Shown here one piece after another: positions 1 to 15,094 of a stretch of DNA of 64,000 bases (the stretch's first letter is position 1; every line of letters starts with the position of its first letter). The stretch comes from Agrococcus sp. ARC_14 (GTDB lineage Bacteria; Actinomycetota; Actinomycetes; Actinomycetales; Microbacteriaceae): assembly GCF_022436485.1 (NCBI RefSeq), contig NZ_JAKUDO010000001.1:62001-126000 (forward strand). Reading direction: 5' to 3'. A program made the translations under genes and the position numbers. Below the pieces are notes generated by a model. It saw nothing but the letters and a program-made list of their open reading frames with translations, did not search any database and was not told the origin of the DNA.

Positions 1-971
1 AGCTTGGCGATCGACGCCACGTTGACCGCATCCGGGTCGCCAGCGTCGACCAGGGTGGCGGCGTGCATCGTGAGCGCGTGGTTCGCTTCGATCGCGACCC
101 GCATCTCGACGAGCTTGTCTGCGATCAGCTGGTGACCGCCGATGGGCTTGCCGAACGTCTGGCGCTCCTTCGCATACGCGAGGCAGCGATCGAGGAGGTC
201 CCGGAGCGCACCGACACTGAGCGCTGCAAGCAGGAGGCGCTCATTCGCCAGGCCCGGCAGGACGCCGTTCCAGCCCTGCCCCACTTCCCCCAGCACCTCA
301 TTCGCGGGCACCCGCACATCGGCGAAGAACACCTCGCAGAGGTCGAGACCCTTGAGCCCCATCTTCGAGAGCTTGCGGACGGAGACGCCGGTGAGCGACG
401 GATCGATCATCAGCGTCGTGATCCCGTCACGCTTGCCGCCTCCGGTGGAGGTGCGCACTCCGGTCACGATGACATCGGAGACCGCGGCGCCCGTGATGAA
501 GACCTTCGATCCGTTCACGATGTAGTCGTCGCCGTCGAGGACCGCCGTCGTCCGCAGCGCGGCAGCGTCGGATCCGGAACCCGGCTCCGTGAGCGCGAAG
601 GCAACGTTGTCGCCGTCGAGGATGCGCGGCATCCACACGGCCTTCTGCTCGTCGGTGCCCAAGCGATCAATCGCCTCGGCGCCCAGCACCCAGAGGGAGA
701 AGTACGCCTGGCCGACGACGAGGTTGTGGCGGGCGAGCGCCTCGTGCACGAGCACGAGATCCTGAGCGCTCGCGCCGGCACCGCCGGCCTCCTCCGAGAT
801 GGGGAGTGCCGACCATCCTGCGCTCGCGAGCGCGTCCATGACCTCTTGCGGGTACCGCGCCTCACGATCGAGCATCGCGGAGTACTCGTCGGTGACGATG
901 CTCGCGCAGATCTGATCGATCGCGTCGATCATCATCTGCTGCTCTTCACTGAGCGTGCTCGAGATTGCCAT
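1..971 (-). CDS. Acyl-CoA dehydrogenase (C-terminus beyond left edge)
   Basis: About 323 residues are visible and no stop is reached, so the gene is cut by the window edge. The order of parts is that of the acyl-CoA dehydrogenase family: an N-terminal helical domain (MAISSTLSEEQQMMIDAI), a middle beta domain with FALTEPGSGSDAA near residue 130 and the start of the C-terminal helical domain (YAKERQTFGKPI near 277). The family oxidises acyl-CoA to enoyl-CoA with FAD and electron-transfer flavoprotein. ATG 971 is preceded by GAAGGA at good spacing. A TTGACA / TTACCT promoter with a palindromic operator in the spacer lies upstream, so it is probably transcribed on its own rather than only from the liv operon. 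The likely role is alpha,beta-desaturation of the CoA ester made by the ligase at 6.3 kb (inference). Confidence 0.93.
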   Translation of the reverse strand, partial: MAISSTLSEEQQMMIDAIDQICASIVTDEYSAMLDREARYPQEVMDALASAGWSALPISEEAGGAGASAQDLVLVHEALARHNLVVGQAYFSLWVLGAEAIDRLGTDEQKAVWMPRILDGDNVAFALTEPGSGSDAAALRTTAVLDGDDYIVNGSKVFITGAAVSDVIVTGVRTSTGGGKRDGITTLMIDPSLTGVSVRKLSKMGLKGLDLCEVFFADVRVPANEVLGEVGQGWNGVLPGLANERLLLAALSVGALRDLLDRCLAYAKERQTFGKPIGGHQLIADKLVEMRVAIEANHALTMHAATLVDAGDPDAVNVASIAK

Positions 972-1001
972 CACATTTCCTTCTCGCTTGCCTACGTTTG
1001 T

Positions 1002-1031
1002 AGGTAATCATGCTTGTCCTACAAGTGTCAA
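1002..1031 (-). promoter_or_regulatory. Promoter with operator in spacer, upstream of acyl-CoA dehydrogenase
   Basis: On the minus strand TTGACA (1031-1026) is separated by 18 bp from TTACCT (1007-1002). The spacer is almost filled by the perfect palindrome CTTGTCCTACAAG (1013-1025, arms of five). A second inverted repeat, CCTAC-GTTT-GTAGG, lies at 991-1004. A repressor bound at 1013-1025 would block polymerase. The same motif recurs in front of other units of this island. Confidence 0.6.
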
Positions 1032-1070
1032 GTCGACAAGAAAAATGTCCTCGACCTGCGTGGGTCAGTA

Positions 1071-1589
1071 CTACGAGACGTGGGACATGCGGCTGCTCAG
1101 GGCCGAGCTGGCCAAGGAATCCCAGGCAGCGAACTCCGCGTCTCGAGCCAAGCCCTTGGTCAGTAGCGCCACGGTGTCGCCGGCGAATCGCACGACGCGC
1201 CTGGTCTCAAGGCTCACATTCAGCAGCACGGTCTCCAGGCTGCTGGAGAGCAAGCCCCGATCCTCGTCGACGAGGTACGTCATCGTCTGCACGGCGGTCT
1301 CCGTCGCATCGACCAAGCGCATCCTGCAGGTAAATCGGGTGCCCAATCGCACCTCCCGCAGGTAGCGCGCGCGGTGCTCGATCGAGAACAGGCCCATGCC
1401 CGTCCGCACCGGGTACTCCAGGTCGAGGCCGAACGCACCGCATCCGGCTATCGTCGCCCTCGTCTGCACGTTCAGGTACTCCAGCACGGTCATGTGGCCC
1501 ATGACATCCAGTTGCTCCGGCTCAACGGATCCTTCGCTTACGATCGGCACGCCGGCCAGATCGTCGAACGCGGGGGCACGGAGGCTCAT
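1071..1589 (-). CDS. Hotdog-fold acyl-CoA thioesterase-like protein
   Basis: The protein has 172 residues, the size of a single hotdog domain. The N-terminal stretch EQLDVMGHMTVLEYLNV, with Asp near residue 28 followed by GHM, matches the 4-hydroxybenzoyl-CoA thioesterase / FcbC-like active-site helix. The central ARYLREVRLGTRFTCRMRLVD is the typical following strand region. It probably releases CoA from a pathway intermediate or guards against dead-end CoA esters. The start codon overlaps the stop of livM (ATGA), so it is translationally coupled as the last gene of the liv operon. The specific substrate is unknown. Confidence 0.8.
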   Translation of the reverse strand: MSLRAPAFDDLAGVPIVSEGSVEPEQLDVMGHMTVLEYLNVQTRATIAGCGAFGLDLEYPVRTGMGLFSIEHRARYLREVRLGTRFTCRMRLVDATETAVQTMTYLVDEDRGLLSSSLETVLLNVSLETRRVVRFAGDTVALLTKGLARDAEFAAWDSLASSALSSRMSHVS

Positions 1590-2656
1590 GTCCGCGCACC
1601 GCTCGGCGCCGGGACGGCCGGCTCATCGAGCCCTGCCACTGGCTTCACGCGCGACCGCCGACGACGGACGAGCGAGATCAGCCCGCCCGGCACGAACAGC
1701 ACGAGCAGGATGTAGACGATGCCGAGCACAAGGTCGTGCGAGGTCACGGCGCGCTCGAGGTAGGTGGGCAGCTCATGCACCCACGCCTGGCGATCGAGCT
1801 GGTCCAGCATCGGGCCGCTCAGCCGCACCAGGAACGCACCCAGGATCGGGCCGAGCAGGGTTCCGGGGCCACCGATGATGACGATGAGCAGCACCTGCAC
1901 CTGGATGTGCAGGCCGAGCTGCTCCGGCGAAGCGATCTGCAGCAGCACGGCGTTCAGCGCGCCGGCAAGGCCTGCGATCGCCCCCGACACGGTGAGCGCG
2001 ACAAGCTTCTGACCGGCGATGTTGACACCCAGTGATTGCGCGCGCACGCGGTTGTCACGAATGCCAGCCCACAGTGACCCTATGGGAGCCCGCTTCAGCA
2101 CCGTCATGATGCCGAGGACCACGAGCATCAGCACGGCGGTCAGCATGTAGAAGCCGGTCGAGCCGAAGTTCACGTTGAGCGCATCTGGCAGTCCCGTGAC
2201 GCGCAGGCCGTTCTCGCCACCCGTCAGCCCGAGGATGTCGGTGCCGGCTGCCGTGAAGGCCGCCTGCGCAATCGCGAGGGTGACGATCCCGAAGAAGATC
2301 CCGCGGATGTGCGAGGTCATCAATCCGAGCACGAAGCCGACAGCCGCCGTCATTGCGATTGCCAGCAGGATGGCGGTGACGATGTCGACGCCGAGCTTGG
2401 TCAGGTTGGCCACCGTGTAGCTCGCGAAGCCGAAGAAGAGCGCCTGCCCAAGCGAGAACAGCCCCATCTGGCCGAGCAGCACGTTATACGACATCCCGAA
2501 GATCGCGAAGATGCAGATGTCTGCTGCGACGAGCACCCAGTACTCGTTGGCGAGCCACAGCGGCAGCGTCAAGATCGCGAGCACCGCGACTGCCCCGATG
2601 GCGATCCGGATCCAGGTCTGCCGAGAGAACTCGGGGAGCAATGTTGTGCGGCTCAC
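1586..2656 (-). CDS. livM: Branched-chain amino acid-type ABC permease LivM
   Basis: A 356-residue, strongly hydrophobic integral membrane protein with about nine predicted segments. Family landmarks are YNVLLGQMGLFSLGQALFFG and GGPGTLLGPILGAFLV, typical of LivM. The open frame continues far upstream of the real gene. GTG 2656 is chosen because it overlaps the livH stop (GTGA) and brings the length to the family norm. It forms the translocation pore with LivH. The Liv family also imports aromatic and other carboxylates and amides, so the substrate here need not be an amino acid. The surrounding acyl-CoA genes argue for an organic acid (inference). Confidence 0.93.
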   Translation of the reverse strand: MSRTTLLPEFSRQTWIRIAIGAVAVLAILTLPLWLANEYWVLVAADICIFAIFGMSYNVLLGQMGLFSLGQALFFGFASYTVANLTKLGVDIVTAILLAIAMTAAVGFVLGLMTSHIRGIFFGIVTLAIAQAAFTAAGTDILGLTGGENGLRVTGLPDALNVNFGSTGFYMLTAVLMLVVLGIMTVLKRAPIGSLWAGIRDNRVRAQSLGVNIAGQKLVALTVSGAIAGLAGALNAVLLQIASPEQLGLHIQVQVLLIVIIGGPGTLLGPILGAFLVRLSGPMLDQLDRQAWVHELPTYLERAVTSHDLVLGIVYILLVLFVPGGLISLVRRRRSRVKPVAGLDEPAVPAPSGART

Positions 2657-3543
2657 GTTCGTGACACTTCCTTCGAGAACAGCCCTTGCGGCCTCAGCAG
2701 CAGGACGATGATCAGCAGGCCGACGACCACGAAGTTCTGCGCGCCGAGCCAGAAGTACGAGACGAAGGAGGAGAGCACGCCGATCAGGATCGCTCCGACG
2801 GCCGAACCCACATAGGAGCCCAATCCGCCAACCACGACGATGCCGAATGCGAGGATCAGCAGCTCGTCGCCAAGCAGGGGATACGTGCCTTGGTAGAAGT
2901 AGAGACCGGCTGCGCCCGCGAATCCGGCCATGGCAGCACCGATGGTGAACACCCACATGAACACCGAGTTCACATTGATGCGCAGCGACTGCACCATGTC
3001 GGGGTCCTGAACTCCCGCGCGGATGAGCAGGCCGATCTTCGACTTGTTCATCAGCAGGTACGCGCCAACGAATACGAGCACGCCGAGTCCGATCAGGATC
3101 AGCCGGAAGATCTGCACGTAGCCGCCCAAGAAGGGGACGGTGTCGCCGATCCCCGGAGTCGGTGCGACCGTTGCGAAGTTGGGCCCGAACCCGATGTGCA
3201 CGAGTTCCGTGAGGATCAGTGCGACGCCGAGGGTCAGCAGCAACTGCCGGAGGTGCGCGGTGAGCTGATCTTGCGCCCTGTAGAAGCGGCGGATCAGCAG
3301 CCGCTCCACGACAAACCCGAGGACACCCACGCCGACGGTCGCTGCCACGAACGCCACGAAGATGTTCGAGACAGCCGCGACGCTCAGGGCGATGTATGAG
3401 CCGACGAGGAAGAACGCTCCGTGTGCAAAGTTGGGCACGTCGAGGAGCCCGAAGATCATGGTCAGGCCCGACGACACGAGGAAGAGGATGGCCGCGAGCG
3501 CGAGCCCGTTCACGAGGAGCGTGGCGGTTGTAGCGAGATCCAT
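2653..3543 (-). CDS. livH: Branched-chain amino acid-type ABC permease LivH
   Basis: A 296-residue permease with about eight membrane segments. LTMIFGLLDVPNFAHGAFF near residue 30 and FGIVVVGGLGSYVGSAVGAI near 240 are LivH hallmarks. It starts directly after livF ends and overlaps livM by four bases, consistent with one polycistronic unit in the order SBP-livG-livF-livH-livM-thioesterase. It heterodimerises with LivM in the cytoplasmic membrane. Confidence 0.95.
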   Translation of the reverse strand: MDLATTATLLVNGLALAAILFLVSSGLTMIFGLLDVPNFAHGAFFLVGSYIALSVAAVSNIFVAFVAATVGVGVLGFVVERLLIRRFYRAQDQLTAHLRQLLLTLGVALILTELVHIGFGPNFATVAPTPGIGDTVPFLGGYVQIFRLILIGLGVLVFVGAYLLMNKSKIGLLIRAGVQDPDMVQSLRINVNSVFMWVFTIGAAMAGFAGAAGLYFYQGTYPLLGDELLILAFGIVVVGGLGSYVGSAVGAILIGVLSSFVSYFWLGAQNFVVVGLLIIVLLLRPQGLFSKEVSRT

Positions 3544-4260
3544 TTACCGCTCCTTATGGGTGGAGATCGTGAGGTACTTCTCAGTGACCGTGCTTTCGCT
3601 GGTGAGCTCACTTGCCGGGCCCTCAGCAACGGTGACTCCGTCGTCGATCACCATGAAGTGCTGGCTGAGACGCCGAGCGGCGTCGAGATTCTGCTCGACC
3701 AGCAGGATCGAGATCTCTCCCTTCAGCGCCCGAAGCGCTGCGACGAGCTCGTCGATGGCCAGCGGAGCAAGCCCCTTCGTCGGCTCATCGAGCACGAGCA
3801 GCTTCGGGTCTTGCAGCAGCGCGCGACCGATTGCGAGCATCTGCTGCTGGCCGCCCGAGAGCGCGCCCGATGGCTGCTTCAGGCGCTCCCGAAGGATCGG
3901 GAACATGTCCAGGATCGTGTCCCGCGACAGCGAGCCACGAGCTTCGACCATTCGCAGGTTCTCTTCGACCGTGAGCGTCGGAAACATCCCGCGGCGCTCC
4001 GGCACGTAGCCGATGCCGCGCCGGCTGACTTCGTAGGGCGCGAGACCCACAAGAGATTCGCCGTCGAACTCCACCGTGCCGCTCGTCAGTGGCAGGAAGC
4101 CGAGGATCGCTTGCAGCGTCGTGGTCTTGCCTGCGCCATTGCGACCCAGGATGACCGTGACATCGCCCTCGGGTAGATCGACCGATACGTCGGTAAGGAT
4201 GTGGAACGGCCCGATCGACACATCGATCTTCCGCACTTCGAGCAGTCGGTTGTCAACCAA
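3544..4260 (-). CDS. livF: ABC transporter ATP-binding protein LivF
   Basis: A 238-residue ATPase. The Walker A motif GRNGAGKT is at 39-46, the signature LSGGQQQ at 134-140, and Walker B LLVLDEP at 154-160, followed by TKGLAP, which is specific for LivF proteins. The first residues overlap the end of livG by eight bases, so translation is coupled. It energises import together with LivG. Confidence 0.95.
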   Translation of the reverse strand: MVDNRLLEVRKIDVSIGPFHILTDVSVDLPEGDVTVILGRNGAGKTTTLQAILGFLPLTSGTVEFDGESLVGLAPYEVSRRGIGYVPERRGMFPTLTVEENLRMVEARGSLSRDTILDMFPILRERLKQPSGALSGGQQQMLAIGRALLQDPKLLVLDEPTKGLAPLAIDELVAALRALKGEISILLVEQNLDAARRLSQHFMVIDDGVTVAEGPASELTSESTVTEKYLTISTHKER

Positions 4261-5044
4261 GGGACGGGTCCTCTCCGAGATATGCCTTCTTCACTGCAGC
4301 GTCACCGGCGACCGCCGCGGGCGTGTCGAACGCGATGAGCGTCCCGCGGTCGAGCACCGCGACCCGATCGGAGATCTCGAAGATTAGCGAGATCTTGTGC
4401 TCGACGATCACCATGCTCGCTCCCGTTCGCTCGCGGGCACGTGCGATTGTTTCCGTGAGGCCCGCAACGTCGCCGGCAGCCATGCCCGCGCTCGGCTCGT
4501 CGAGGAGCATCACCCGGCCACCGGCCGCCAGGAGCATCGCGACCTCAAGGCCTCGCGCCTGTCCGTGCCCAAGCGTGCTCGCCGGTCGGTCTTCTGAACC
4601 CTCAAGTCGCGTTGCAGACAGCGCCTCGCGAACGGCGACCGAAACTCGGTCCCCGCGCACCCGGCCCATCCACCAGGAGAACTGTCCCCCTCGGCTGGCA
4701 AGTGCGGCGTAGCGGATGTTCTCCCCAACTGTCATGGTCGGAAACACCGTCGTCGACTGGAAGCTGCGCGCCAGCCCGGATCGCGCTCGCTGATACACCG
4801 GCACGCGGGTGATGTCGTTCCCAAAGAACGACACCGACCCCGCGTCCGGCTTGCTCTGGCCGCTGATGATGTTGAGCAGCGTGCTCTTGCCTGCGCCATT
4901 CGGCCCGATGAGCCCGACGACTTCACCGTCCTTCACGTCGATCGACACGTCCTGGAGCGCTCGGATGCCGCCGAATGTCACCGAAACTTCGTGAGTCTCT
5001 ATCACCGCTGGGGGCGAGGCAGTCGTCATGGTGCGGCCCGTCAC
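4253..5044 (-). CDS. livG: ABC transporter ATP-binding protein LivG
   Basis: 263 residues with Walker A GPNGAGKS (47-54) and Walker B VMLLDEP (178-184). The signature is degenerate, LGHGQARGLE instead of the usual LSxGQ, which is common in LivG-type subunits. GTG 5044 overlaps the stop of the binding-protein gene (GTGA). ATG 5029 is an alternative start that would remove five residues. The typical LivG stretch LARSFQSTTVFPTMTVGEN follows Walker A. Confidence 0.94.
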   Translation of the reverse strand: MTGRTMTTASPPAVIETHEVSVTFGGIRALQDVSIDVKDGEVVGLIGPNGAGKSTLLNIISGQSKPDAGSVSFFGNDITRVPVYQRARSGLARSFQSTTVFPTMTVGENIRYAALASRGGQFSWWMGRVRGDRVSVAVREALSATRLEGSEDRPASTLGHGQARGLEVAMLLAAGGRVMLLDEPSAGMAAGDVAGLTETIARARERTGASMVIVEHKISLIFEISDRVAVLDRGTLIAFDTPAAVAGDAAVKKAYLGEDPSLG

Positions 5045-6261
5045 TGCTCGATCGGGCTGATGACCGGAGTTGCGCTGTCTTCAAGCGTGAAGGTGTCGAC
5101 GATCGTCACAGCGCCATCGGCGCCGACCGTCGCTTCATAGAAGCTCTGCAGGAAGGTGTGATCCTCTGCTCGCACCTCGAACTCGCCCTTGATCGATTCG
5201 CCGGTGAGATTCGAAAGCGCAGCCGTGACAGATTCGCTGTCAGTGGTCCCCGCTTCCCGAATCGCCTGCACCGCGATCATGCCGGCGACACCCGAGTCTC
5301 CCGCGTAGACGTCGGGTTCGATGCCGCCGCTGAGCTCTGTGAAGGTCTCGACGAACTGCGCATTCAGATCGCCCGGAACGGACGCGGAGTAGATCGCGAA
5401 GTACTTGAGCTTCGGTGCGACGCCACCCATCGCTTCGATCGTGTCGCGCTGCGGCAGCAGCGTGACAACCTCAGAGGAGTCGGGGATGCCCGCATCGCCC
5501 AGGTTCTGCCAGAGCGTCGGACCTCCCGATCCGGCGAAGGTGACGACGACGAGGACATCGGGACTCGCGTTTCGGATGCGCTCCGCCACTGCCGTGTAGT
5601 CACGGGAATCGAGCGGAGCGAAGATGGGCTCGCTCACTGACTCACCGCCAGCTGCGGTGAGGTTCTCCTGCCAGGCTGCCGCGGCCGACTGCCCGTAGGC
5701 GTAGTCGGGAGCGAGCACGAGGAAGCTCTCGCCCGCCTGGATATCCGCGACTGCGGCACCCATCTGCGCCTCCTGCAGCGCATCGCGCGATGTGCGGAAC
5801 GTATAGGGGCTGAAGCCGGTGAGATCGCTCGTCGCAGAGATCGAGAAAATAGCAGGAACCTGCGCGTCGGCAAAGATCGGCGCAGCCGAGACGGCGCTTG
5901 CCGACGACATCGGACCGAATACGAGGTCGGGCTGATCCTGCTGCAGGAGACCGCGAGCCTGCGCTGGCACGGCGCCTGCGTCGGAGCCGTCGTCGAGAAC
6001 GACGAACTGAATCTCCCGGCCGTCAATCTCGTTCGTGCCGTCGGTCGCGAGCGAGACGCCTGCACGCACGCCGTACTCGAAGTCGGGGCCGAGCGCTGCG
6101 AGTGAGCCGGACGAGGTTGAATGGATGCCGAGGACGATGGGGCCAGCGTCGTCACTGCCCGTTCCCCCTGTCGCCGGCCCGCTGCACGCACTGATGAGCA
6201 GTGCCGTCGTGGCCAGAGCAGCAACCGCTGCCCCTGACCTCAGTTTGCGAGATGAATGCAT
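5041..6261 (-). CDS. Liv/LivK-type periplasmic-binding lipoprotein of the ABC importer
   Basis: 406 residues. A lipoprotein signal peptide ends in LISAC with the lipidated Cys at 26, followed by a Gly/Thr-rich linker. The mature part has the type I periplasmic-binding (Peripla_BP_6) fold: IVLGIHSTSSGSLAALG at the start and FLVLAPDYAYGQSAAAAW around 190. It captures the substrate and delivers it to LivHM. It is the first gene of the import operon. GGAGG lies seven bases before the ATG, and a CTTGTCCTACAAA operator abuts the Shine-Dalgarno sequence, so repressor binding would close this operon. The ligand cannot be read from sequence. Confidence 0.93.
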   Translation of the reverse strand: MHSSRKLRSGAAVAALATTALLISACSGPATGGTGSDDAGPIVLGIHSTSSGSLAALGPDFEYGVRAGVSLATDGTNEIDGREIQFVVLDDGSDAGAVPAQARGLLQQDQPDLVFGPMSSASAVSAAPIFADAQVPAIFSISATSDLTGFSPYTFRTSRDALQEAQMGAAVADIQAGESFLVLAPDYAYGQSAAAAWQENLTAAGGESVSEPIFAPLDSRDYTAVAERIRNASPDVLVVVTFAGSGGPTLWQNLGDAGIPDSSEVVTLLPQRDTIEAMGGVAPKLKYFAIYSASVPGDLNAQFVETFTELSGGIEPDVYAGDSGVAGMIAVQAIREAGTTDSESVTAALSNLTGESIKGEFEVRAEDHTFLQSFYEATVGADGAVTIVDTFTLEDSATPVISPIEQ

Positions 6262-6272
6262 GTCAGGACCTC

Positions 6273-6285
6273 CTTGTCCTACAAA
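6273..6285. promoter_or_regulatory. Operator, CTTGnCTnACAA type, before the liv operon
   Basis: CTTGTCCTACAAA is a near-perfect palindrome, the same core as at 1013-1025. It lies directly upstream of the GGAGG of the binding-protein gene that starts at 6261. Confidence 0.55.
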
Positions 6286-6313
6286 GACTTACGATGAAGA
6301 TGACTGTACGGAA

Positions 6314-6326
6314 CTTGTCAGGCAAG
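6314..6326. promoter_or_regulatory. Second operator-like palindrome before the liv operon
   Basis: CTTGTCAGGCAAG (minus strand CTTGCCTGACAAG) has perfect five-base arms, extended by one base on each side. It lies 53 bp upstream of the binding-protein start, 41 bp from the first site and just downstream of the ligase stop codon. Two sites four helical turns apart would allow cooperative binding. Confidence 0.5.
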
Positions 6327-6338
6327 TGCAACTGCGCG

Positions 6339-7856: not shown

Positions 7857-7888
7857 CGTGGCTCCTTTGCAACCTGTCAATGGTCCCT

Positions 7889-7901
7889 CTTGACTGACAA
7901 T
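7889..7901. promoter_or_regulatory. Operator in divergent ligase/EthD intergenic region
   Basis: CTTGACTGACAAT is identical over all 13 bases to the site at 12968-12980 and has the same core as the sites at 1013, 6273 and 14153. It sits between the divergent starts at 7856 and 7962 and could control both. Confidence 0.6.
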
Positions 7902-7961
7902 AGCGGTCTGCTACGTTGATGGACAATCGCATGACTGCATATCCCGACGAAGGGAACGCTC

Positions 7962-8303
7962 GTGACTCCGAGGCCGACGCCACCGCCGACGTCGATTCTC
8001 GTCCGTGCAGTCCTCACCCCGGCCGTGTCGGAGGACGAGTTCGATGCCTGGTATCGCGAGGAGCATCTGCCGCAGGCTGCAGTCCAGCTCGGCGCACGCA
8101 CTGCAAGCCGGTTGTGGAGTCTGGACGAGGCCGACGGACTCGTCCACTACGCCCGCTACGACTTCGACACCAACGAGCATCTCGAGGCAGCGCTGCAGGG
8201 CGAGCCGATCTCGTTCCTGATCACCCACTTCACCTCCAGATGGGGAGACACTGTCGCGCGCACGCGCTCCCGCGCGACTGCCGTCGAAAGCCTGGCCGGG
8301 TGA
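7962..8303 (+). CDS. EthD-like dimeric alpha/beta-barrel protein
   Basis: 113 residues. The segment DEFDAWYREEHLPQAA near 25-40 is the EthD / dimeric alpha-beta barrel signature (W-Y-x-E-E-H-L-P). Small proteins of this fold often accompany oxidation pathways, either as accessory proteins or as cyclases/monooxygenases. The GTG start follows GAAGGG. The stop overlaps the next start (GTGA), giving a three-gene rightward unit with the racemase-family gene and the flavoprotein. A catalytic role is not established. Confidence 0.75.
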   Translation: MTPRPTPPPTSILVRAVLTPAVSEDEFDAWYREEHLPQAAVQLGARTASRLWSLDEADGLVHYARYDFDTNEHLEAALQGEPISFLITHFTSRWGDTVARTRSRATAVESLAG

Positions 8304-9046
8304 ACGCCGCAGCTATGCGAGTCGGTGTCGTGATGCCGAGCGTCAACACGGTGCTCGAGTCGTGGTTCCCCTACGCGCTCCCGGAACACATCCGGATGGC
8401 ATCTGCACGGATGCCGCTCGGCGCGGAGGCGACGCCGCAGGCGATCGAGGCGATGGACGAGTTCGGCATCGAAGCCGCGATCACGCTCTCGGGCAGCAGA
8501 CCATCGGCGATCCTCTACGCCTGCACGGCGTCGAGCCTGCTTGCCGGTCGTGCGTACGACCTCGAGCTGATGCGCCGGATCAGCGCTGCCACAGGCGTGA
8601 CCACGTTGACCACGACGGAGTGCGTGCTGCGCGCCCTGGACGAGCTCGAGATCGGCACCATCGCGGCTGCGTCACCGTATGCGGGCAAGCTCGCGAGCGC
8701 GGAAGGGGCATTCCTGCGCTCGTGTGGGCTGGACGTCGCCGGTGAAGCGCATCTGGGGATAGCCGGCAGCTTCGAACTTGCGCTTCCGACGGATGCCGAG
8801 ATCGTGCATCTGGGTCTGGATGCGTGGGGGGCCGCCGAAGGGCGCGCCGAAGGGCTCTTCATCGGGTGCATGAACCTGCACTCCCATCGGGTCGCCGCGC
8901 AGCTGGAGCAGTTGATTGGGGCACCGGTGGTGACCGCCACCACCGCGAGCCTGTGGGCCATGCTGCAGACCGTCGGATCCGATGTGACGCTGGAGGGATT
9001 CGGTCGACTGCTCGCTCGAACCACCTGCCGAGCGCCACGTGACTAG
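8300..9046 (+). CDS. Asp/Glu racemase-superfamily protein (maleate isomerase / arylmalonate decarboxylase-like)
   Basis: 248 residues from GTG 8300, which overlaps the preceding stop; ATG 8315 is the alternative. MRVGVVMPSVNTVLE resembles the N-terminus of maleate isomerases and arylmalonate decarboxylases. Cysteines stand at both expected catalytic positions, YACTAS (Cys75) and GCMNLHS (Cys190). Two cysteines are the arrangement of the racemase/isomerase branch, while the arylmalonate decarboxylases keep one. The likely chemistry is cis-trans isomerisation of an unsaturated diacid or epimerisation next to a carboxylate. The substrate is unknown. Confidence 0.8.
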   Translation: MNAAAMRVGVVMPSVNTVLESWFPYALPEHIRMASARMPLGAEATPQAIEAMDEFGIEAAITLSGSRPSAILYACTASSLLAGRAYDLELMRRISAATGVTTLTTTECVLRALDELEIGTIAAASPYAGKLASAEGAFLRSCGLDVAGEAHLGIAGSFELALPTDAEIVHLGLDAWGAAEGRAEGLFIGCMNLHSHRVAAQLEQLIGAPVVTATTASLWAMLQTVGSDVTLEGFGRLLARTTCRAPRD

Positions 9047-9060
9047 TGCGAGGAGCACAC

Positions 9061-10398
9061 ATGCCTGCAGAGACTGCTGACGATAGCTTCGCCGTCGACG
9101 TCATCGTCATCGGCGCGGGAATAGGCGGCCTGACGATCGCGTCCGAGCTCGCGCGCCGCGGCTATGAGGTTGGCGTCGTCGAGATCGGCGATCACGTCGG
9201 AGGATCGGCCGTGCTCTCCGAGGGGTACGTCTGGACCGCACTCGACGAGGATGCGTTCCTCAATGAGGATCCGGACGGGGATGCCTCCAAGTTCCTTGCG
9301 ATGCGCGCCGAGCTGTTCGAAGCCCTCGCGGAGCTCGAAGGGAGAGGCATCGAGGTCGGTCCGGTGCTCGAGAACGTCCTCGGCTTCGGAACCGGTCGCC
9401 AGCTGGACATCGGGCGCTACATCGATCACTGCACGCGCGTCGTCGAGAGTGCGGGCGGATGGGTGCTGCTCGAGCATGAGGTCGAGTCGCTCGTGACGCG
9501 GTCGGGGGCCGTGACCGGAGTCGTCGTCCGGGATCCCGAGGGTGCGACCGAGCCGATCGCTGCACGGGCAGTGGTGATCGCCACCGGCGGGTTCCAGGGC
9601 AGCCCCCAACTGCGCTCGGAGTTCATCGGCCCGTGGGCAAGTGATCTGCTGCTGCGTGCCAACCCCGCGAGCATCGGTGGCGGAGTCGAGCTGGGCCGGA
9701 GCGTGGGCGCAGCCCTTTCACTCGGTGGCGACGGTTTCTACGGCCACCTTGTTCCGTATCCGCTCGATCGCTGGGACCCCTCGAACTACACAGCGCTGTC
9801 GCAGTACCACAGCGATGAAGGCGTCTTGCTCTCGCGCGAGGGTCAACGCTTCGCCGACGAGGCGCACGGCGACCATGTCAACGCGCAGGAAGTCGCGAAG
9901 GTCGGCCGAGCGCTGCTGTTCATCGACGATGAGTTGTGGCAGAGGCGTGGGGCAGCTGTCTTCATCCCCGGGATGCCCGCGCTGGACAAGGTCAGGGATG
10001 CCGTCGAGATCGGCGCGCATGTTTCGGTCGCGGACAACCTCGCCGAGCTCGTCGCGCCCGTCGCATCATGGGGATTCGACGCCGACGCGACGCTCGCCTC
10101 GCTGACTGAAGTGCAGCGTACGGCGACCGGCCCGCGAGGCAGCGCGCTTCGGCAGCCCCCATTTGCCCTGATGGAGGTGCAGTCCGCGATCACCTTCACC
10201 CTCGGAGGCCTCAGCACGGGCGTGCACGGCCAGGTTCTGAATGAGGCTGGCGGCACCGTTCCTGGGCTCTGGGCCGCCGGCGTGGACGCCGGAGGGTTGA
10301 ACGTCCGCGGCTATACAGGAGGCCTCGTGCGTGGGCTGGTTCTCGGTCGCATCACCGCTCGTGCGATCGACGCCGCGCTGCAGCGCGACGAGCGCTAG
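9061..10398 (+). CDS. FAD-dependent oxidoreductase, fumarate reductase / ketosteroid-dehydrogenase-like
   Basis: 445 residues. The dinucleotide-binding motif VIVIGAGIGGLTIASELARR has GAGIGG at 18-23, and Glu at the end of the second strand (VVEIGDHVGGSA). The C-terminal WAAGVDAGGLNVRGYTGGL closes the FAD site as in the FAD_binding_2 family (flavocytochrome c, 3-ketosteroid delta1-dehydrogenase, urocanate reductase). ATG 9061 is chosen over GTG 9046 because GAGGAG stands five bases before it. It probably performs a C=C forming or reducing step. It ends convergently with the regulator gene, overlapping by four bases. Confidence 0.88.
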   Translation: MPAETADDSFAVDVIVIGAGIGGLTIASELARRGYEVGVVEIGDHVGGSAVLSEGYVWTALDEDAFLNEDPDGDASKFLAMRAELFEALAELEGRGIEVGPVLENVLGFGTGRQLDIGRYIDHCTRVVESAGGWVLLEHEVESLVTRSGAVTGVVVRDPEGATEPIAARAVVIATGGFQGSPQLRSEFIGPWASDLLLRANPASIGGGVELGRSVGAALSLGGDGFYGHLVPYPLDRWDPSNYTALSQYHSDEGVLLSREGQRFADEAHGDHVNAQEVAKVGRALLFIDDELWQRRGAAVFIPGMPALDKVRDAVEIGAHVSVADNLAELVAPVASWGFDADATLASLTEVQRTATGPRGSALRQPPFALMEVQSAITFTLGGLSTGVHGQVLNEAGGTVPGLWAAGVDAGGLNVRGYTGGLVRGLVLGRITARAIDAALQRDER

Positions 10399-11168
10399 TT
10401 TCGCGCCGCTGTCTGCTGCTCCAGAGCCTCGGGGCCCGCCTTAGCGTTGATGTGCTCGCGCAGATAGTCGAGGTGGTTGCGCATTGCGAGCGCCGCAGCT
10501 TCGCTGTCCTCATCGCGGATCGCGTGGTGCAGCGCGATGTGGTGGCCGACTGCCACGCGCCCGAACTCCTCATCGATATAGACGAAGGCCAGCGGTCGTG
10601 CCGTGGAGTGCAACGCGGCGACAAATGCCGCAAGCACCCGGTTTCCCGAGGCATTGGCGATCTCCGAGTGGAACCGCGCGTTGAACTCCGGAACCGCGGG
10701 ATCGTCGAAGGTCGTGCTGCGCTCTTGATCGATGATCTCGCTCAGCACGGCCAGACTGGCCTCGGAACGATGCTGCGCAGCAAGCCTCGCGCTCGGCACC
10801 TCGAGTAGATCGCGGAAATTCGACACCTCGGCCGGAGTGACCGAGCCCAGATCGAGGATCGCCCCCAACCGCTCCGCGACGATGCGTGACAGCGCGTTGT
10901 GATCCACGCTTTGCACGTACATGCCGCTCGTCGTGCCGTGACCCTTAGCCAGCAGTCCCGCTTCAGAGAGTGAGCGGAGCGCTTCCCGGATCGTTGCCCG
11001 GCTGACGTTGAAGGACTGCGCCAGTGCGTTCTCGCTGGGGATGCGATCGCCCTCAGCAAGTTCGCCCTCAAGGATCGCGCGCCTGAGCTGCGTCTCGACC
11101 TGCTGCCGCGGGCGCTGCACCGGGATGGCTGCGAAGCCCAACTCGGCTGCAACTTTTAGATTCGTCAT
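10395..11168 (-). CDS. FadR-subfamily GntR transcriptional regulator (candidate island regulator)
   Basis: 257 residues. A GntR winged helix spans about 20-85 (DRIPSENALAQSFNVSRATIREALRSL). An all-helical FCD ligand domain spans about 100-245 with FHSEIA, HHIALHHAI and NHLDYLREH supplying the histidines that bind metal in this family. FadR-type repressors bind short palindromes of the T-G-T/A-C-A kind and release on binding an acid or acyl-CoA effector. It is the only regulator among genes 1-14.2 kb, its own upstream region carries the CTTG...ACAA motif, and it is therefore the best candidate to bind all of those sites (inference). Confidence 0.93.
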   Translation of the reverse strand: MTNLKVAAELGFAAIPVQRPRQQVETQLRRAILEGELAEGDRIPSENALAQSFNVSRATIREALRSLSEAGLLAKGHGTTSGMYVQSVDHNALSRIVAERLGAILDLGSVTPAEVSNFRDLLEVPSARLAAQHRSEASLAVLSEIIDQERSTTFDDPAVPEFNARFHSEIANASGNRVLAAFVAALHSTARPLAFVYIDEEFGRVAVGHHIALHHAIRDEDSEAAALAMRNHLDYLREHINAKAGPEALEQQTAARN

Positions 11169-11228
11169 ACGAACTCTCCCTTGCTCAGGTCACCTTGACC
11201 AGCGCGGCCTACGCCGCCAGCATATGAC

Positions 11229-11241
11229 ATGGTCAGACAAG
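11229..11241 (-). promoter_or_regulatory. Operator upstream of the FadR-type regulator gene
   Basis: On the minus strand CTTGTCTGACCAT lies 60 bp upstream of the regulator start. It sits between a possible -35 TTACAG and a possible -10 TCATAT (18 bp apart), the same geometry as at 1002-1031. This suggests autoregulation. One arm is imperfect (ACCA instead of ACAA). Confidence 0.5.
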
Positions 11242-11303
11242 CATTCTGTAAGTCGCGCCCACTGCCGGACAGTCGGCCGTGGGACTAGAGCAATGCCACG
11301 GGT

Positions 11304-12934
11304 TCAATGCCAGATCCCGGTCTCGCCTGCGATGTGGCGGGCCGCAAGCCAGCTGAACGCCGTCGCTCGGGCGTTCGCAATGCCGCTGTTGTACCAATAC
11401 CCCTCGACCAGGGCGGCGCCGGAGTTGCCGGTGCAGTAGAGGCCGTCGATGGGCCGATCTCGCCAGTCGAGCACGCGCGCATTGGTGTCGAATCGAAGAC
11501 CGCCTCGCCCGCCAAGCGTTGCCTGCTCCATCTTGAACGCGTAGAGCTTGCCCTCGAGCGGGCGCAGGTTCGGGTTCGGCGTCACGTCGCGGTCACCGTT
11601 GTTGCGCCCATACGCCATCGTTCCGCGCCCGAACTCAGGGTCCTCACCGCTCGCTGCATGCTCGTTGAACCTCGCGAGCGTAGCCTCGAAGGCGGCCGCG
11701 GCGAGGCCGAGAGCGTCGGCAAGCGAGGAAGCATCGTCGGCACGAACGAGCCAATCGGGAACCTCCCCCGGGGCGACAGAGCCCAGCCAGTACTTGTCCT
11801 TCCATGCCTGGTCGAAGACGAAGTACGCCGTGCGATTCGGATACTGCTGCGTCTTGGCGTCGATACGGTTCATGGCCGAGACGACATCGCGGTAGAACGA
11901 CTCGTCGGCGAACCGCACACCCTTGTCGTTCACGACCATCCCACCCGGGAACGCAGGCTCGCGCACGAACAGGCGCCACAGCGGTCGACCGTTGAAGACC
12001 TCGCCCGGGATGTTGACGGCTGGCACGAGGATCTCACCGCTGATCGGGGAGAACGAGGCGCCTGCCTCGAGGGCGAGCGTGATCGCCTCGCCGTCGACCG
12101 TCGGGATGCCCGCGGGGTTCGCGGGCGGGTGCGGATCGAACATCTGCTGCATCCGCTTGTTCCAGTCGTACGCACCGGCCGCGAGGACGACGTTGCTGGC
12201 GGTGAGTTCGACGGGCCCGTCGGGCGTCTCAAACTCGAGCCTCCAGTGGTCCCGCTCGCGACGCAGGCCGACCAGCCGGTGCTCGAGGGCAACGGTCGCG
12301 CCACTCGCCAGAGCCGAGCGGAGCAGGTAGCCGGCCGTTGCCGATCCAAACCCGACCCAGCCGTCCTCACGGCGGGATGCGAGGAGTTCGTGATCCCACC
12401 GGTCGACCGTTCCATAGCCGCCCCACCGCTGGACCTCGGCCCAGGACGTCGGAATCCGTTCGTAGATCGGCGACCGGAGCAACGCATCCGCCCACTCACC
12501 AGGAAGCGTCTTCGTGTCGAAGACCGGTGATGCGATGTAGCGGCCCGCGGCAGTGCCAAACGGTGACTCGGCGTAGTAGTCGGGGTAGTTCGAGATGACC
12601 TCGTACGGCACGTCGCACGCGTCGGCGAGCTCATCGACCGACGGCGCCACCGCTTCCATGAAGGCCCGTGTGATGGTGATGTCGTTGTGGCCAGCGGCGA
12701 GGTGGTCGACGTGGGCGATCGCATCCTCGACGCTGTCGACGTACCCCTCGGCCCCGGCGCGCGCTGACCCCGGCACCCACGTCAAGCCGGTCGAGTAGGC
12801 GTAGGTTCCGCCCACCGACCCGGATGCCTCGAGGACGGCGACGGAGAGTTGCGCTTGCGCGCATAGACCGCTGCCGCCAGACCCGCTCCGCCAGCGCCGA
12901 TCACTGCAACATCAAGATGCGACTCCATCGTCAT
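11304..12934 (-). pseudogene. FAD-binding oxidoreductase (ketosteroid-dehydrogenase-like), frameshifted near its N-terminus
   Basis: The two parts lie in different frames. ATG 12934, preceded by GGAGG, opens MTMESHLDVAVIGAGGAGLA, a textbook FAD GxGxxG motif. Near 12850-12856 the reading frame breaks; adding one base after the AAG codon restores VYARKAQLSVAVLEASGSVG followed by GTYAYSTGLTWVPG and then about 500 clean residues to the stop, including GLYCTGNSGAALVEGYWYNSGIA near the end. So a single-base deletion, or a sequencing error, interrupts an otherwise intact ~540-residue flavoprotein of the FAD_binding_2 family. ATG 12815 would give a 503-residue product lacking the nucleotide-binding loop, which could not work as such. 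The gene is divergent from the EthD-like gene at 13036. Confidence 0.8.
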
Positions 12935-12959
12935 CACTTCCTCCGCCTCACTGCGAATC

Positions 12960-12988
12960 TTGCTCCGCTTGACTGACAATGTACTATC
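12960..12988 (+). promoter_or_regulatory. Promoter with operator, divergent flavoprotein/EthD region
   Basis: TTGCTC (12960-12965) and TACTAT (12982-12987) are 16 bp apart. CTTGACTGACAAT (12968-12980) fills the spacer. That 13-mer is identical to the site at 7889-7901. The promoter reads towards the EthD-like gene at 13036. The operator also lies 34 bp upstream of the flavoprotein start on the other strand. Confidence 0.55.
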
Positions 12989-13035
12989 AGACGCAAAACG
13001 ACAGCAAGCCCGACGATCACCCCACGGAGGCGACG

Positions 13036-13740
13036 ATGCTGCATCTCGGCACCGGCCAACTGCTCTGGATGCTGCAGCCCGACGACACCGTCGAGGACGA
13101 GTGGAACGAGTGGTACGACACCGAGCATGTGGCGGCGCTCATGCGTGTGCCGGGCTTCCTCAACGGCGCTCGCTACCGACTCGAGCGCACATTGGCCGGC
13201 GTGACACCGCCGCGCTATCTCGCCTCGTATGAGCTCGACGACCTCGACGTGCTGGAGTCGGAGAGCTACCGCTCGAACCGCTCCTCGCTCGGTGAGGGGA
13301 TGCGCCGTCACTGGACGCAGCGGATGCTCGGTGAGGTCACGTACGCAGCCGGCGGGATGTACCACGTGCGCGACGCGTGGCAGCGGCCGGCGACGCAGCC
13401 GGTGCTGCCGGCACCGCGACTGCTGCTGATCGGGTTGGCAAGCGGTGCCGCACAGGAGTCGTGGCTCGACGAGCACCTTCCGAGCCTGCGAGCACAAGCC
13501 GGTGTTCGCGGATACCGCAGCCTCGCCCTCGCAGCAGGCTCACCGCGGATCGCGGGCATGCGAGACCGCGCAGAGGCGGCACAGCTGCTGATCGTCTGCG
13601 CTCTCGATGCTGAGAGCGACCCCCAGGAGCCGCTGGTCGCTCTGTGCGCGGATCGGACGGCGTCGGAGGTCACCGCTGCGAGCTACCTACCGATCTTCGC
13701 CGCCTTTGGCCAGGCGGCTACAACCCCTTCGGCTCCGTGA
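13036..13740 (+). CDS. EthD-like protein with two related halves
   Basis: 234 residues from ATG 13036, which has GGAGG five bases upstream. An earlier in-frame ATG at 12979 overlaps the operator and is unlikely. DEWNEWYDTEHVAALMRVPGFL (residues about 20-41) is a clear EthD-type motif, and ESWLDEHLPSLRAQAGVRGYRS in the second half looks like a degenerate repeat of it, so this is probably a fused dimeric alpha/beta barrel. This is the second such protein in the island. The function is unknown. The 3' end overlaps the convergent SnoaL-like gene by 23 bases. Confidence 0.72.
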   Translation: MLHLGTGQLLWMLQPDDTVEDEWNEWYDTEHVAALMRVPGFLNGARYRLERTLAGVTPPRYLASYELDDLDVLESESYRSNRSSLGEGMRRHWTQRMLGEVTYAAGGMYHVRDAWQRPATQPVLPAPRLLLIGLASGAAQESWLDEHLPSLRAQAGVRGYRSLALAAGSPRIAGMRDRAEAAQLLIVCALDAESDPQEPLVALCADRTASEVTAASYLPIFAAFGQAATTPSAP

Positions 13741-14074
13741 TCCGAAGCCATGGCGGGATGGTCGTCACATCCGACTGCCACAGCGCGACGTGCTGGCGCC
13801 GAACGATCAGCCAGGTGCCGCCGGCCTCGACCCCGTCGCCGGTCAGTTCGACGTGACACCCCGCTAGGTCGTGGACGGTGGACGCGTACTGTGCGGTCGC
13901 GCGCTGCACGAAGGCGGCAACACCTGCACCGCCGACCAGCACTTGGGCGTCACCGTTGTAGACACTTTGCGCCTCCGGGGAGAAGCATTCCCAATCCCCC
14001 ACGTCGATGCACACCACGCCGCGCTGCAGTGTGTAGCGGATCGCGACTGAGGCCTCCGCGGACGGTCTCGTCAT
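13718..14074 (-). CDS. SnoaL-like (NTF2-fold) small protein
   Basis: 118 residues from ATG 14074; an in-frame TTG at 14128 would add 18. The stretch AIRYTLQRGVVCIDVGDWECFSP resembles the first helix of SnoaL_4 / NTF2-fold polyketide cyclase and dehydratase-like proteins. The fold normally continues into a strand with an Arg-rich ending; here WLRITEPKGL ends abruptly at the convergent gene, so it may be slightly shortened. Members act as cyclases, isomerases or hydratases on hydrophobic intermediates. The start is weakly supported. Confidence 0.6.
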   Translation of the reverse strand: MTRPSAEASVAIRYTLQRGVVCIDVGDWECFSPEAQSVYNGDAQVLVGGAGVAAFVQRATAQYASTVHDLAGCHVELTGDGVEAGGTWLIVRRQHVALWQSDVTTIPPWLRITEPKGL

Positions 14075-14128
14075 CTCGCGCTGTTCCCGACTGGCTGGCC
14101 CGGCAGTGCAGGTCACGACCTTGATCAA

Positions 14129-14165
14129 ATTGCTAACAATGGACAGAATAGGCTTGCCTTACAAT
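14129..14165. promoter_or_regulatory. Operator pair between SnoaL-like and LLM oxidoreductase genes
   Basis: CTTGCCTTACAAT (14153-14165) matches the island motif. A shorter palindrome ATTGCTAACAAT lies at 14129-14140, 24 bp away centre to centre. The pair sits between divergent genes starting at 14074 and 14237 and marks the right end of the presumed regulon. Confidence 0.5.
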
Positions 14166-14236
14166 TGACGCGTCGCGCTTCATCTGTCGACGCCGGAGGC
14201 ACGGACTGTCAGCATCAACGAAGAGAGACGGTAGTC

Positions 14237-15094
14237 ATGAGAGTCGGAGTCCACCTTCCCCAGTGGGGCGCCGGAGCGAATCGCTCGGCCGTGATCGATC
14301 TCGCGCAGGCCGCGGAGGAGAGCGGCTTCGACTCGGTCTGGGTCGCCGACCACATCGTGCTGCCCGTCGAGTCGAACTCCGACTATCCGTATCGCGGCAG
14401 CGGTACGCCGTTCGCGCCGGAGGACGGATTCCTCGAAGGTCTCACGATGCTCGCCGCGGTCGCAGGCGCGACCACGAAGGTCGGCCTGGGTACGAGCGTG
14501 CTCGTGCTGCCCATGCGGCACCCGCTCGAGGTCGCGAAGATCGCAAGCACGATCGACCTGCTGTCCGACGGCAGACTGCAGCTCGCGGTCGGCGCAGGCT
14601 GGATGCGCGAGGAGTTCGACGCGCTTGACCAGCGTTTCGATGCGCGCGGGCGCCGCATGGACGAGCAGATCGAGATCATGCGGCTCGCGTGGACCAAGGG
14701 GATTTTCGCTTACTCCGGCGAGTTCTACGACTTCCCAGAGCTCGCCTGCCTGCCGCTGCCCGTGCAGCCGAGCGGTCCACCACTGCTGATCGGGGGACTC
14801 GGCCCGACCGCGTTCCGTCGCATCAAGCGTCACGGCGACGGCTGGCAGGTGCTCGGCGCCGACTTCGACGCACTCACCGAGATGCGCACCAGGCTCGACG
14901 AGCTCGGTCCCGGCAAGATCCTCAGCACGTCGACAGGCATGCCTCGCACAGCAGAGAAAGCCATCAACCGTCTGCGCTCGCTGGCCGCCGCCGGAGTCGA
15001 CCAAGTCGTGCTCAACTCGATCGAGACGCCGGCCGATCTGCTGGCCCGACTCCAGATGTATCGCGACGAGGTGTTCCCCGCTGTTTCTACTTGA
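14237..15094 (+). CDS. LLM-class (F420-dependent type) oxidoreductase
   Basis: 285 residues from ATG 14237. MRVGVHLPQWGAGANRSAV, WVADHIVLPVES, LGTSVLVLPMRHPLEVAK, DLLSDGRLQLAVGAGWMREEF and GPPLLIGGLGPTAFRRI follow the order of the luciferase-like monooxygenase TIM barrel, in the branch annotated as F420-dependent oxidoreductases. Such proteins reduce or oxidise C=C, ketones or alcohols with F420H2, or with FMNH2 and oxygen in the monooxygenase branch. It is transcribed away from the operator pair. It is the last gene of the lower-GC island. Its reaction is unknown. Confidence 0.88.
   Translation: MRVGVHLPQWGAGANRSAVIDLAQAAEESGFDSVWVADHIVLPVESNSDYPYRGSGTPFAPEDGFLEGLTMLAAVAGATTKVGLGTSVLVLPMRHPLEVAKIASTIDLLSDGRLQLAVGAGWMREEFDALDQRFDARGRRMDEQIEIMRLAWTKGIFAYSGEFYDFPELACLPLPVQPSGPPLLIGGLGPTAFRRIKRHGDGWQVLGADFDALTEMRTRLDELGPGKILSTSTGMPRTAEKAINRLRSLAAAGVDQVVLNSIETPADLLARLQMYRDEVFPAVST

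Follow-up and report, generated by a model that had tools for sequence, protein, structure and literature searches.

The catabolic island

The window analysed here, a stretch of 64,000 nucleotides from Agrococcus sp. ARC_14, opens with an island of genes for CoA-dependent catabolism, in which the following features were recognized:

3..971, minus strand: acyl-CoA dehydrogenase, first gene of a leftward operon that runs past the window
1071..1589, minus strand: thioesterase (4HBT_2)
1586..6261, minus strand: liv-type ABC transporter genes (livM, livH, livF and livG named by eye)
5041-6261, minus strand: livK substrate-binding protein (Pfam)
6339..7880, minus strand: AMP-forming acyl-CoA ligase
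7962..8303, plus strand: small protein, EthD-like by eye, no Pfam or NCBIfam match
8315..9046, plus strand: arylmalonate decarboxylase (Amdase) / maleate isomerase family (PF17645, 1.6e-27)
9046..10398, plus strand: FAD-dependent dehydrogenase (FAD_binding_2)
10395..11168, minus strand: FadR-type regulator with GntR winged helix and FCD domain (Pfam), the putative repressor
11304..12928, minus strand: FAD-dependent dehydrogenase, 3-ketosteroid / 4-oxocyclohexanecarboxylate dehydrogenase superfamily
12979..13740, plus strand: ORF, EthD-like by eye, weak DUF4286 match, likely start 13039
13718..14128, minus strand: small ORF, SnoaL-like by eye, no NCBIfam match
14237..15094, plus strand: luciferase-like monooxygenase (PF00296, run from the ORF start 14165)

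The operon headed by the acyl-CoA dehydrogenase gene leaves the window leftward and comprises 14 genes by adjacency, ending at C1:49575. The product of 3..971 resembles acyl-CoA dehydrogenases in many models, though with scores short of the curated cut-offs, and with respect to the pathway substrate the family models yield only broad names, most of them below curated cut-offs as well. Search listings of the literature on that substrate contained nothing on this cluster. The A subunit encoded in the leftward operon has glutaconate CoA-transferase as its best PDB match (2e-32); the next matches, at 2.8e-30 to 8.7e-29, carry the name CoA-transferase alpha subunit, and we take these chains to be IpdA. 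The pair is provisionally called IpdAB-like here, a label of our own. An apparent frameshift lies close to the start of the FAD dehydrogenase gene at 11304..12928.

A palindrome between the genes

The first-pass annotation had described one palindromic operator that recurs through the island, and all seven of its 13-bp sites are present:

1013..1025, minus strand: CTTGTCCTACAAG, candidate operator before the acyl-CoA dehydrogenase operon
6273..6285, minus strand: CTTGTCCTACAAA, candidate operator about 12 bp from the livK start
6314..6326, minus strand: CTTGCCTGACAAG, second candidate livK operator, 41 bp upstream of the 6273 site
7889..7901, unstranded: CTTGACTGACAAT, candidate operator common to the divergent ligase gene (minus) and the EthD-like/Amdase/FAD operon (plus)
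11229..11241, minus strand: CTTGTCTGACCAT, candidate operator before the gntR gene itself (possible autoregulation)
12968..12980, unstranded: CTTGACTGACAAT, candidate operator common to the divergent FAD dehydrogenase gene (minus) and ORF 12979-13740 (plus)
14153..14165, unstranded: CTTGCCTTACAAT, candidate operator common to ORF 13718-14128 (minus) and the luciferase-like monooxygenase gene (plus)

All seven sites lie wholly between genes, given the gene starts adopted here (12927 for the FAD gene and 13039 for the next ORF), in a segment (window 3-15094) where intergenic DNA amounts to 623 of 15,092 bases. If the two ORFs are instead begun at the mechanical start 12979 and at 14165, two bases of the 12968 site fall inside the former and one base of the 14153 site inside the latter. 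The palindrome itself holds; its consensus, on the other hand, is better written as the 13-bp (A/C)TTGTC-N-GACAA(T/G). Several sites are lopsided, with T, C or A at position 5, which counts against the operator reading given below. Sites 1013, 6273, 6314, 7889, 11229 and 12968 are one mismatch away from the perfect core TTGTCNGACAA, and 14153 is two away. The consensus quoted for the FadR subfamily, TNGTNNNACNA (PMC2230225), is fitted in full at 1013, 6273 and 11229 (minus strand) and missed at one position by 6314, 7889, 12968 and 14153. A further match with one mismatch, at window 4250, falls in coding sequence where livG and livF overlap and was not kept among the operators. Nine transcription units are counted here, and the regulon, first put at about 14 genes, is larger, with about 29 genes by adjacency and possibly further members leftward of these.

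Distribution of the motif in the genome

A genome-wide scan, which could have found the motif equally frequent elsewhere, left the proposal standing: CTTGNCYNACAA has seven exact matches in the 3.27-Mb genome (backwards control, 11), six of which are within the 13 kb of the island. Exact matches to CTTGNCTNACAA number four genome-wide, all in the island; with at most one mismatch there are 22 in the genome, eight of them in C1:62001-76300 (including the coding match at window 4250), and 44 for the backwards control in the genome. At the same tolerance TTGTCNGACAA occurs at 21 places, with an exact match at C1:35690. The 13.2-kb island has six of these (binomial P 2.3e-10), and C1:14166-74979, a stretch picked after the fact, has 11 (P 2.8e-14); the other 10 are outside C1:14-75 kb. 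Since genome totals of these patterns do not surpass their backwards controls but the matches are bunched in the island, it is the clustering and not the total that is unusual. When two mismatches are allowed the window contains 21 matches against 14.8 by chance, a count reached by 4 of 100 shuffles, and this looser motif, being close to chance, is of no use for site finding.

Some matches were set apart. The seventh exact match, C1:1121033, lies within an ORF that is aminotransferase-like by eye (L009:5525-6748) and was not counted as a site. Among the ten outlying neighbourhoods, at most four of which were viewed (L009, L096, L097), the matches at L096:4631 and L097:4409 are inside called ORFs. 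Site L008:3866 scores 14.7 bits with a widened matrix and is missed at 14 bits or more by the matrix built from the window alone; the pair of SDR genes that it precedes therefore count as candidates only.

The regulator and its relatives in other genera

The protein of 257 residues encoded at 10395-11168 is of the FadR type, as had been proposed, with an N-terminal GntR winged helix (PF00392, 8.2e-19, residues 21-75) and a C-terminal FCD domain (PF07729, 2.6e-20, residues 114-234). FCD domains carry a metal/ligand-pocket pattern, (D/N)xxxH...H...H. Residues N163, H167, H210 and H232 are invariant in 26 aligned relatives and correspond in a profile alignment to D, H, H and H of 6az6. Also invariant among the 26 are R57 and R61, likely the equivalents of R45 and R49 of the repressor AlkR, as judged from their place in the recognition helix. 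The claim that this is the only regulator of the island is correct for 1-14 kb, which contains one of the 17 FCD regulators of the genome, but fails farther left: C1:6-44 kb holds two further FCD-GntR genes and one IclR gene (Pfam), together with one GntR-like and one IclR-like ORF recognized by eye.

Counting the regulator itself, 569 proteins match it at E<=1e-20, and a plasmid collection yielded two Streptomyces matches of 47-48% identity. At E<=1e-40 a relative is absent from all 23 same-genus genomes searched. Exact CTTGNCYNACAA is likewise missing from 15 of 22 same-genus genomes and occurs one to three times in the others, although these 22 genomes encode 6-17 FCD regulators each.

Loci of relatives in other genera were scored with a matrix built from the seven window sites only, with permuted, composition-matched matrices as controls. 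With a threshold of 14 bits this matrix picks up 15 sites, 14 of them intergenic, in four loci from three strains whose regulators are 64-75% identical; the controls average 0.95, and none of 200 reaches 15. These placements rest on redone gene calls for L016-L018, and L016 is 39% uncalled even so, which makes 'intergenic' weak for its five of the 15 sites. The signal fades as regulator identity falls. At 53-58% identity (four loci) there are four sites at 14 bits, where controls give 0.77 and 2 of 200 reach the count, and one site at 16 bits, where controls give 0.21 and 39 of 200 reach it; at 39-50% identity (23 loci) there are six at 14 bits against 1.6 (7 of 200) and none at 16 bits. The loci of 48 distant GntR relatives hold 30 sites against 14.1 for permuted matrices (0 of 60), and this enrichment, taken with the 17 FCD regulators of the genome, indicates that the palindrome is partly a family-wide signature.

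Several sites in these loci stand before genes of the same kinds as in the island. Sites at L017:9942 and L018:2097 precede gntR, as do weaker ones (<14 bits) at L016:9650 and 9695; those at L015:4255 and 4291 of Microbacterium aoyamense precede an acyl-CoA dehydrogenase gene; and L044:16504 of Mycobacterium aquaticum lies 207 bp from an acyl-CoA dehydrogenase gene, in the gap between it and a beta-keto acid cleavage gene. The IpdAB-like pair and parts of the leftward-operon set adjoin the regulator in five of the eight close or intermediate loci (L015, L017, L018, L020 and L044); the pair was not found beside it in L016, L019 or L021. This neighbour comparison displayed 13 of the 31 searched loci. 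Neither livK, the Amdase gene, the two FAD genes nor the 7962 ORF has a relative at E<=1e-6 in the 31 loci L015-L045, so that the leftward operon alone is shown to go with the regulator.

Comparison with known systems

KstR2 is a TetR-family protein with a different operator, whereas the regulator here is GntR/FCD by Pfam. The two cases would share a dedicated regulator for a pathway that includes ipdAB, which in Mycobacterium tuberculosis is among the KstR2-regulated genes (PMC5380842). The closest parallel in operator sequence is AlkR, an FCD-GntR repressor of a catabolic gene with a DNase I footprint on ATTGTCAGACAAT, whose 13-bp palindrome is identical and has TTGTCNGACAA as its core (PMC12042122). 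The footprint sequence also occurs at L018:8397. Use of the AlkR operator requires R45 and R49 of helix 3, and AlkR is released by C16/C18-CoA (PMC12042122). It differs in being a VanR-type FCD protein with six C-terminal helices and an effector domain that extends to residue 219, against 257 residues here, and the paper treats the alkB2 promoter where we count nine transcription units (PMC12042122). CrgA, a LysR-type protein, has been reported on the alkB2 promoter that contains the AlkR palindrome, so such a palindrome need not be a GntR protein's (PMC6422896).

PrpR of P. aeruginosa resembles the present regulator: it is a GntR protein for the catabolism of organic acids, its half-sites are the same and a predicted site lies upstream of its own gene. 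Its predicted palindrome, ATTGTCGACAAT, differs in having 12 bp without the central base, and the pathway is another one (PMC9765439). GntR1 and GntR2 of Corynebacterium glutamicum are likewise actinobacterial members of the FadR subfamily that serve several catabolic promoters through sites near TNGTNNNACNA; they differ in governing gluconate catabolism and in that both activation and repression have been proposed (PMC2230225).

A probable single switch and its alternatives

The palindrome stands before each gene group and travels with one regulator, which makes control of the pathway by a single switch very probable. We consider it likely, from the sequence comparisons above, that the motif is the operator of the 10395-11168 protein, which would act as a local repressor, control its own gene and be released by an acid of the pathway or a CoA ester. 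A regulator dimer would bind the 13-bp palindrome with one winged helix per half-site, and occupied sites would cover the promoters of the island's units, including the regulator's own, in keeping with the site at 11229 that was correctly assigned to gntR. In the absence of substrate the transporter, the ligases and the degradation operons would be blocked together; as the substrate or its CoA ester built up, the regulator would be released and the whole pathway, transport included, would be turned on at once. Binding, repression and the effector (an acid or CoA thioester of the pathway) are thus predicted properties of the protein.

Alternatively, the palindrome could be a generic FCD-type operator whose sites are bound by another FCD regulator, or several, of this genome. 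The 17 such regulators, two others of which lie in C1:7-43 kb, and the enrichment around distant GntR relatives mean that another protein could bind some sites, above all those in C1:14-36 kb, and this palindrome, or one very close to it, is bound by AlkR and predicted for PrpR (PMC12042122, PMC9765439). As a general explanation this is nevertheless unlikely: the same-genus genomes, with their own FCD regulators, have 0-3 exact matches each, the sites in other genera remain beside close relatives of the 10395-11168 protein, and this protein is encoded by the sole FCD gene of the 1-14 kb island and has its own site.

The position of the sites relative to promoters bears on the sign of control. 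A strict sigma-70 scan found no promoters and, with the loose pattern TTGNNN/TANNNT, boxes fit three of the seven sites (6314, 7889 and 12968), both of which count against the proposal; the flanking -35 and -10 boxes that the first-pass annotation saw at 1013, 11229 and 12968 are recovered for 12968 and not for the other two. Promoter-like boxes overlap the 6314 site and, on both strands, the 7889 and 12968 sites. An activator that sits close to the -35 box and, given inducer, recruits polymerase would suit the 7889 site, which spans a -35-like box of a rightward promoter, and the positions of GntR1/2 sites fit activation of ptsG as well as repression of gntP and gnd (PMC2230225). Such a role is improbable here: the 7889 and 12968 sites overlap -10-like boxes of leftward promoters, the latter also fills the spacer of a rightward promoter, the 6273 site is suited to blocking by its place before the livK start, and AlkR, on the same palindrome, represses (PMC12042122). 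Finally, chance or the composition of AT-rich intergenic DNA would agree with the near-shuffled two-mismatch counts and with genome totals not above the backwards controls, but is hardly conceivable in view of the clustering in the genome and the out-of-sample recovery of sites near close relatives against composition-matched controls.

Implications

The repressor proposed here is of a kind already known; the particular control circuit seems to be undescribed. A wider reading, which we regard as evenly poised between acceptance and rejection, holds that one FadR-type regulator and its palindrome govern a single dispersed regulon of about 30 genes over about 60 kb for a horizontally spread, undescribed pathway that degrades a ring-bearing carboxylic acid. 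Its steps would be Liv-type uptake, CoA ligation, 3-ketosteroid-dehydrogenase-like oxidation, IpdAB-like ring opening and beta-keto acid cleavage. Regulator, palindrome and IpdAB-like core would recur in Microbacterium, Arthrobacter/Paenarthrobacter, Amycolatopsis and Mycobacterium, with genes for transport and ring oxidation exchanged around the core.

The operator would tie the pathway to one switch and supplies an objective list of candidate pathway genes, which extends to transporter genes that lie 27-30 kb to the left of the first site in the island. The effector of the regulator would in turn indicate the pathway substrate. More broadly, the comparison points to a single FCD operator sequence in use for unrelated catabolic pathways of Pseudomonas and of actinomycetes.

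Putative operator sites and predicted transcription units

The window covers positions 62001-126000 of contig C1. Within its first 14 kb the first-pass annotation read seven sites, each 13 bases long and following the pattern CTTGnCTnACAA, all positioned between genes. The seven are present with their strands correctly assigned and, given the adopted gene starts, 7/7 lie outside genes. Every predicted transcription unit of this catabolic island, drawn by adjacency and strand, has a site.

Sites (window positions) and the units assigned to them by adjacency and strand
1013: acyl-CoA dehydrogenase operon
6273 and 6314 (spacing 41 bp): liv genes and thioesterase
7889: ligase, and divergent EthD-like/Amdase/FAD operon
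11229: gntR, the regulator gene (10395-11168, minus strand)
12968: FAD dehydrogenase, and divergent ORF 12979
14153: small ORF 13718, and luciferase-like gene

The operon behind site 1013 leaves the window leftwards and by adjacency totals 14 genes, encoding an acyl-CoA dehydrogenase, two SDRs, an IpdAB-like CoA-transferase family pair, a ligase, a citryl-CoA-lyase-like protein, a beta-keto acid cleavage enzyme, EtfB (by eye), EtfA, a cytochrome b561-like protein, a CoA-transferase pair and a luciferase-like protein. Since this operon has 14 genes, the predicted regulon would comprise 29 genes by adjacency. Over the 64 kb of the window there are ten matches to a loose -35/-10 pattern, five of them overlapping three of the seven sites; a strict promoter scan found no promoter.

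The FAD dehydrogenase gene (11304-12928, minus strand) occupies two reading frames, the FAD-binding N-terminus starting from 12928 in one frame and the remainder forming ORF 11304-12815; this may reflect a true mutation or a sequencing error. Another inverted repeat, TTGCCTAC-N4-GTAGGTAA, occupies 988-1007, in the interval that separates operator 1013 from the start of the acyl-CoA dehydrogenase gene, and in Microbacterium aoyamense a different one, CGACTC-N5-GAGTCG, is found at roughly the same place (by eye). Both may be sites of other regulators.

Clustering of the operator in the genome

What is high is not the genome totals of the operator patterns but their clustering. All four exact matches of CTTGNCTNACAA in the 3.27-Mb genome fall in the island; allowing up to one mismatch there are 22, eight of them in positions 62001-76300 of the 2.7-Mb contig C1 (44 in the genome for the backwards pattern). 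CTTGNCYNACAA has seven matches (backwards control 11), six in the island; the seventh, within an aminotransferase-like ORF, was rejected. Exact CTTGNCYNACAA matches number 0-3 per genome in 22 same-genus genomes, several of them incomplete, and are absent from 15, against seven in the genome studied; these genomes hold 6-17 FCD regulators each. The comparison is valid within the genus only, because genomes from farther away in the order have up to 11.

Because CTTGNCTNACAA and CTTGNCYNACAA were derived from the sites themselves, two further tests were applied. The first used TTGTCNGACAA, the core of the footprint of the P. aeruginosa GntR/VanR protein AlkR, which protects ATTGTCAGACAAT (PMC12042122). 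With up to one mismatch this core has 21 matches genome-wide, compared with 26 per strand for its backwards control, and 6 of the 21 lie in the 13.2-kb island (P 2.3e-10). Eleven of the 21 lie in C1:14166-74979, 1.9% of the genome (P 2.8e-14), a stretch picked after seeing the sites.

Further sites occur left of the window, all intergenic.

Further sites on contig C1
14165: intergenic
32978 and 33092: upstream of one MFS transporter gene
35689: upstream of another MFS transporter gene

The MFS protein behind C1:35689 is 45-47% identical to those of L016 and L017, two loci around regulator relatives, whose genes also have sites 163-363 bp upstream. C1:6001-44000 (loci L094 and L095) carries more catabolic DNA. 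Pfam identifies a LigB-type dioxygenase, a thiolase, two MFS transporters, one IclR regulator and two regulators of the FCD-GntR type; reading by eye adds an ABC transporter and more ORFs that resemble IclR and GntR.

Operators around regulator relatives

In the second test, a matrix built from the seven window sites only was scanned over 79 loci around regulator relatives, grouped by regulator identity.

Sites found versus control mean, with controls reaching the count in brackets, at 12, 14 and 16 bits
Close (64-75%, 4 loci, L016 and L018 from one strain): 21 vs 3.4 (0/200); 15 vs 0.95 (0/200); 9 vs 0.21 (0/200)
Intermediate (53-58%, 4 loci, L020 and L021 overlapping): 9 vs 2.6 (1/200); 4 vs 0.77 (2/200); 1 vs 0.21 (39/200)
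Far (39-50%, 23 loci): 14 vs 7.3 (32/200); 6 vs 1.6 (7/200); no sites at 16 bits
Distant (<40%, 48 loci): 72 vs 49 (5/60); 30 vs 14.1 (0/60); 14 vs 3.7 (0/60)

The far figures indicate that operator conservation fades at about 50% regulator identity, and the distant figures that palindromes of this kind tend to adjoin GntR relatives generally. Fourteen of the 15 close-locus sites are intergenic, the remaining one lying within gntR of L018, as are 3/4 intermediate-locus sites. The operator precedes the acyl-CoA dehydrogenase gene in the window, L015 (M. aoyamense) and L044 (Mycobacterium aquaticum), gntR in the window, L017, L018 and, in weaker form, L016, and MFS genes in the genome studied, L016 and L017.

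Operators are paired at 36-bp spacing in two genera (L015:4255/4291 and L016:5414/5450), and the livK pair of the window at 41 bp; such pairs may hold two dimers on one helix face. Paenarthrobacter nitroguajacolicus LG01 (L016, L018) has two regulator copies in one strain with operator-like sites near each, and the regulator homologues include further pairs of proteins whose longest contigs are equal in length, each pair probably representing two copies on a single contig.

A proposed mechanism

The regulator combines a GntR winged helix with an FCD domain, and its R57 and R61 are invariant in 26 aligned relatives. The AlkR study describes a repressor of alkB2 whose action requires R45 and R49 and for which C16/C18-CoA is the releasing ligand (PMC12042122); its protected ATTGTCAGACAAT has a letter-for-letter copy at L018:8397. 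On the strength of this precedent, this copy and the invariant arginines, we propose that the regulator would act as a dimeric local repressor, that a pathway acid or CoA ester would release it, and that it would also hold down its own production by way of a less perfect site. The annotation had taken the sites for operators of the sole FadR-type regulator of the island; comparison leaves the predicted assignment of the motif to this protein well supported, while repression and the effector are what we infer. Operator type and regulator family are already known; no description of the regulon was found in the literature searched, which included PMC12042122, PMC2230225, PMC9765439 and PMC6422896 and had most subscription journals outside its scope.

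Distribution of the regulator and its island

Close regulator relatives occur in Microbacterium, Arthrobacter and Paenarthrobacter. The IpdAB-like pair and some neighbours adjoin the regulator in L015, L017, L018, L020 and L044, and the pair is not beside it in L016, L019 and L021; across L015-L045, a cut-off of E<=1e-6 yields no relative of livK, of the Amdase, of either FAD gene or of the 7962 ORF. The regulator's companion elsewhere is thus the leftward operon, not the part in the window. At E<=1e-40 the regulator is matched in none of 59 relatives besides its own genome, 23 of the same genus, and at E<=1e-35 in 4/393 other class members (44-50% identity). For the IpdA-like protein, 21/22 same-genus genomes give nothing at E<=1e-30, and the remaining one gives a 32% match. 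It follows that the island was either acquired or is a trait seldom retained.
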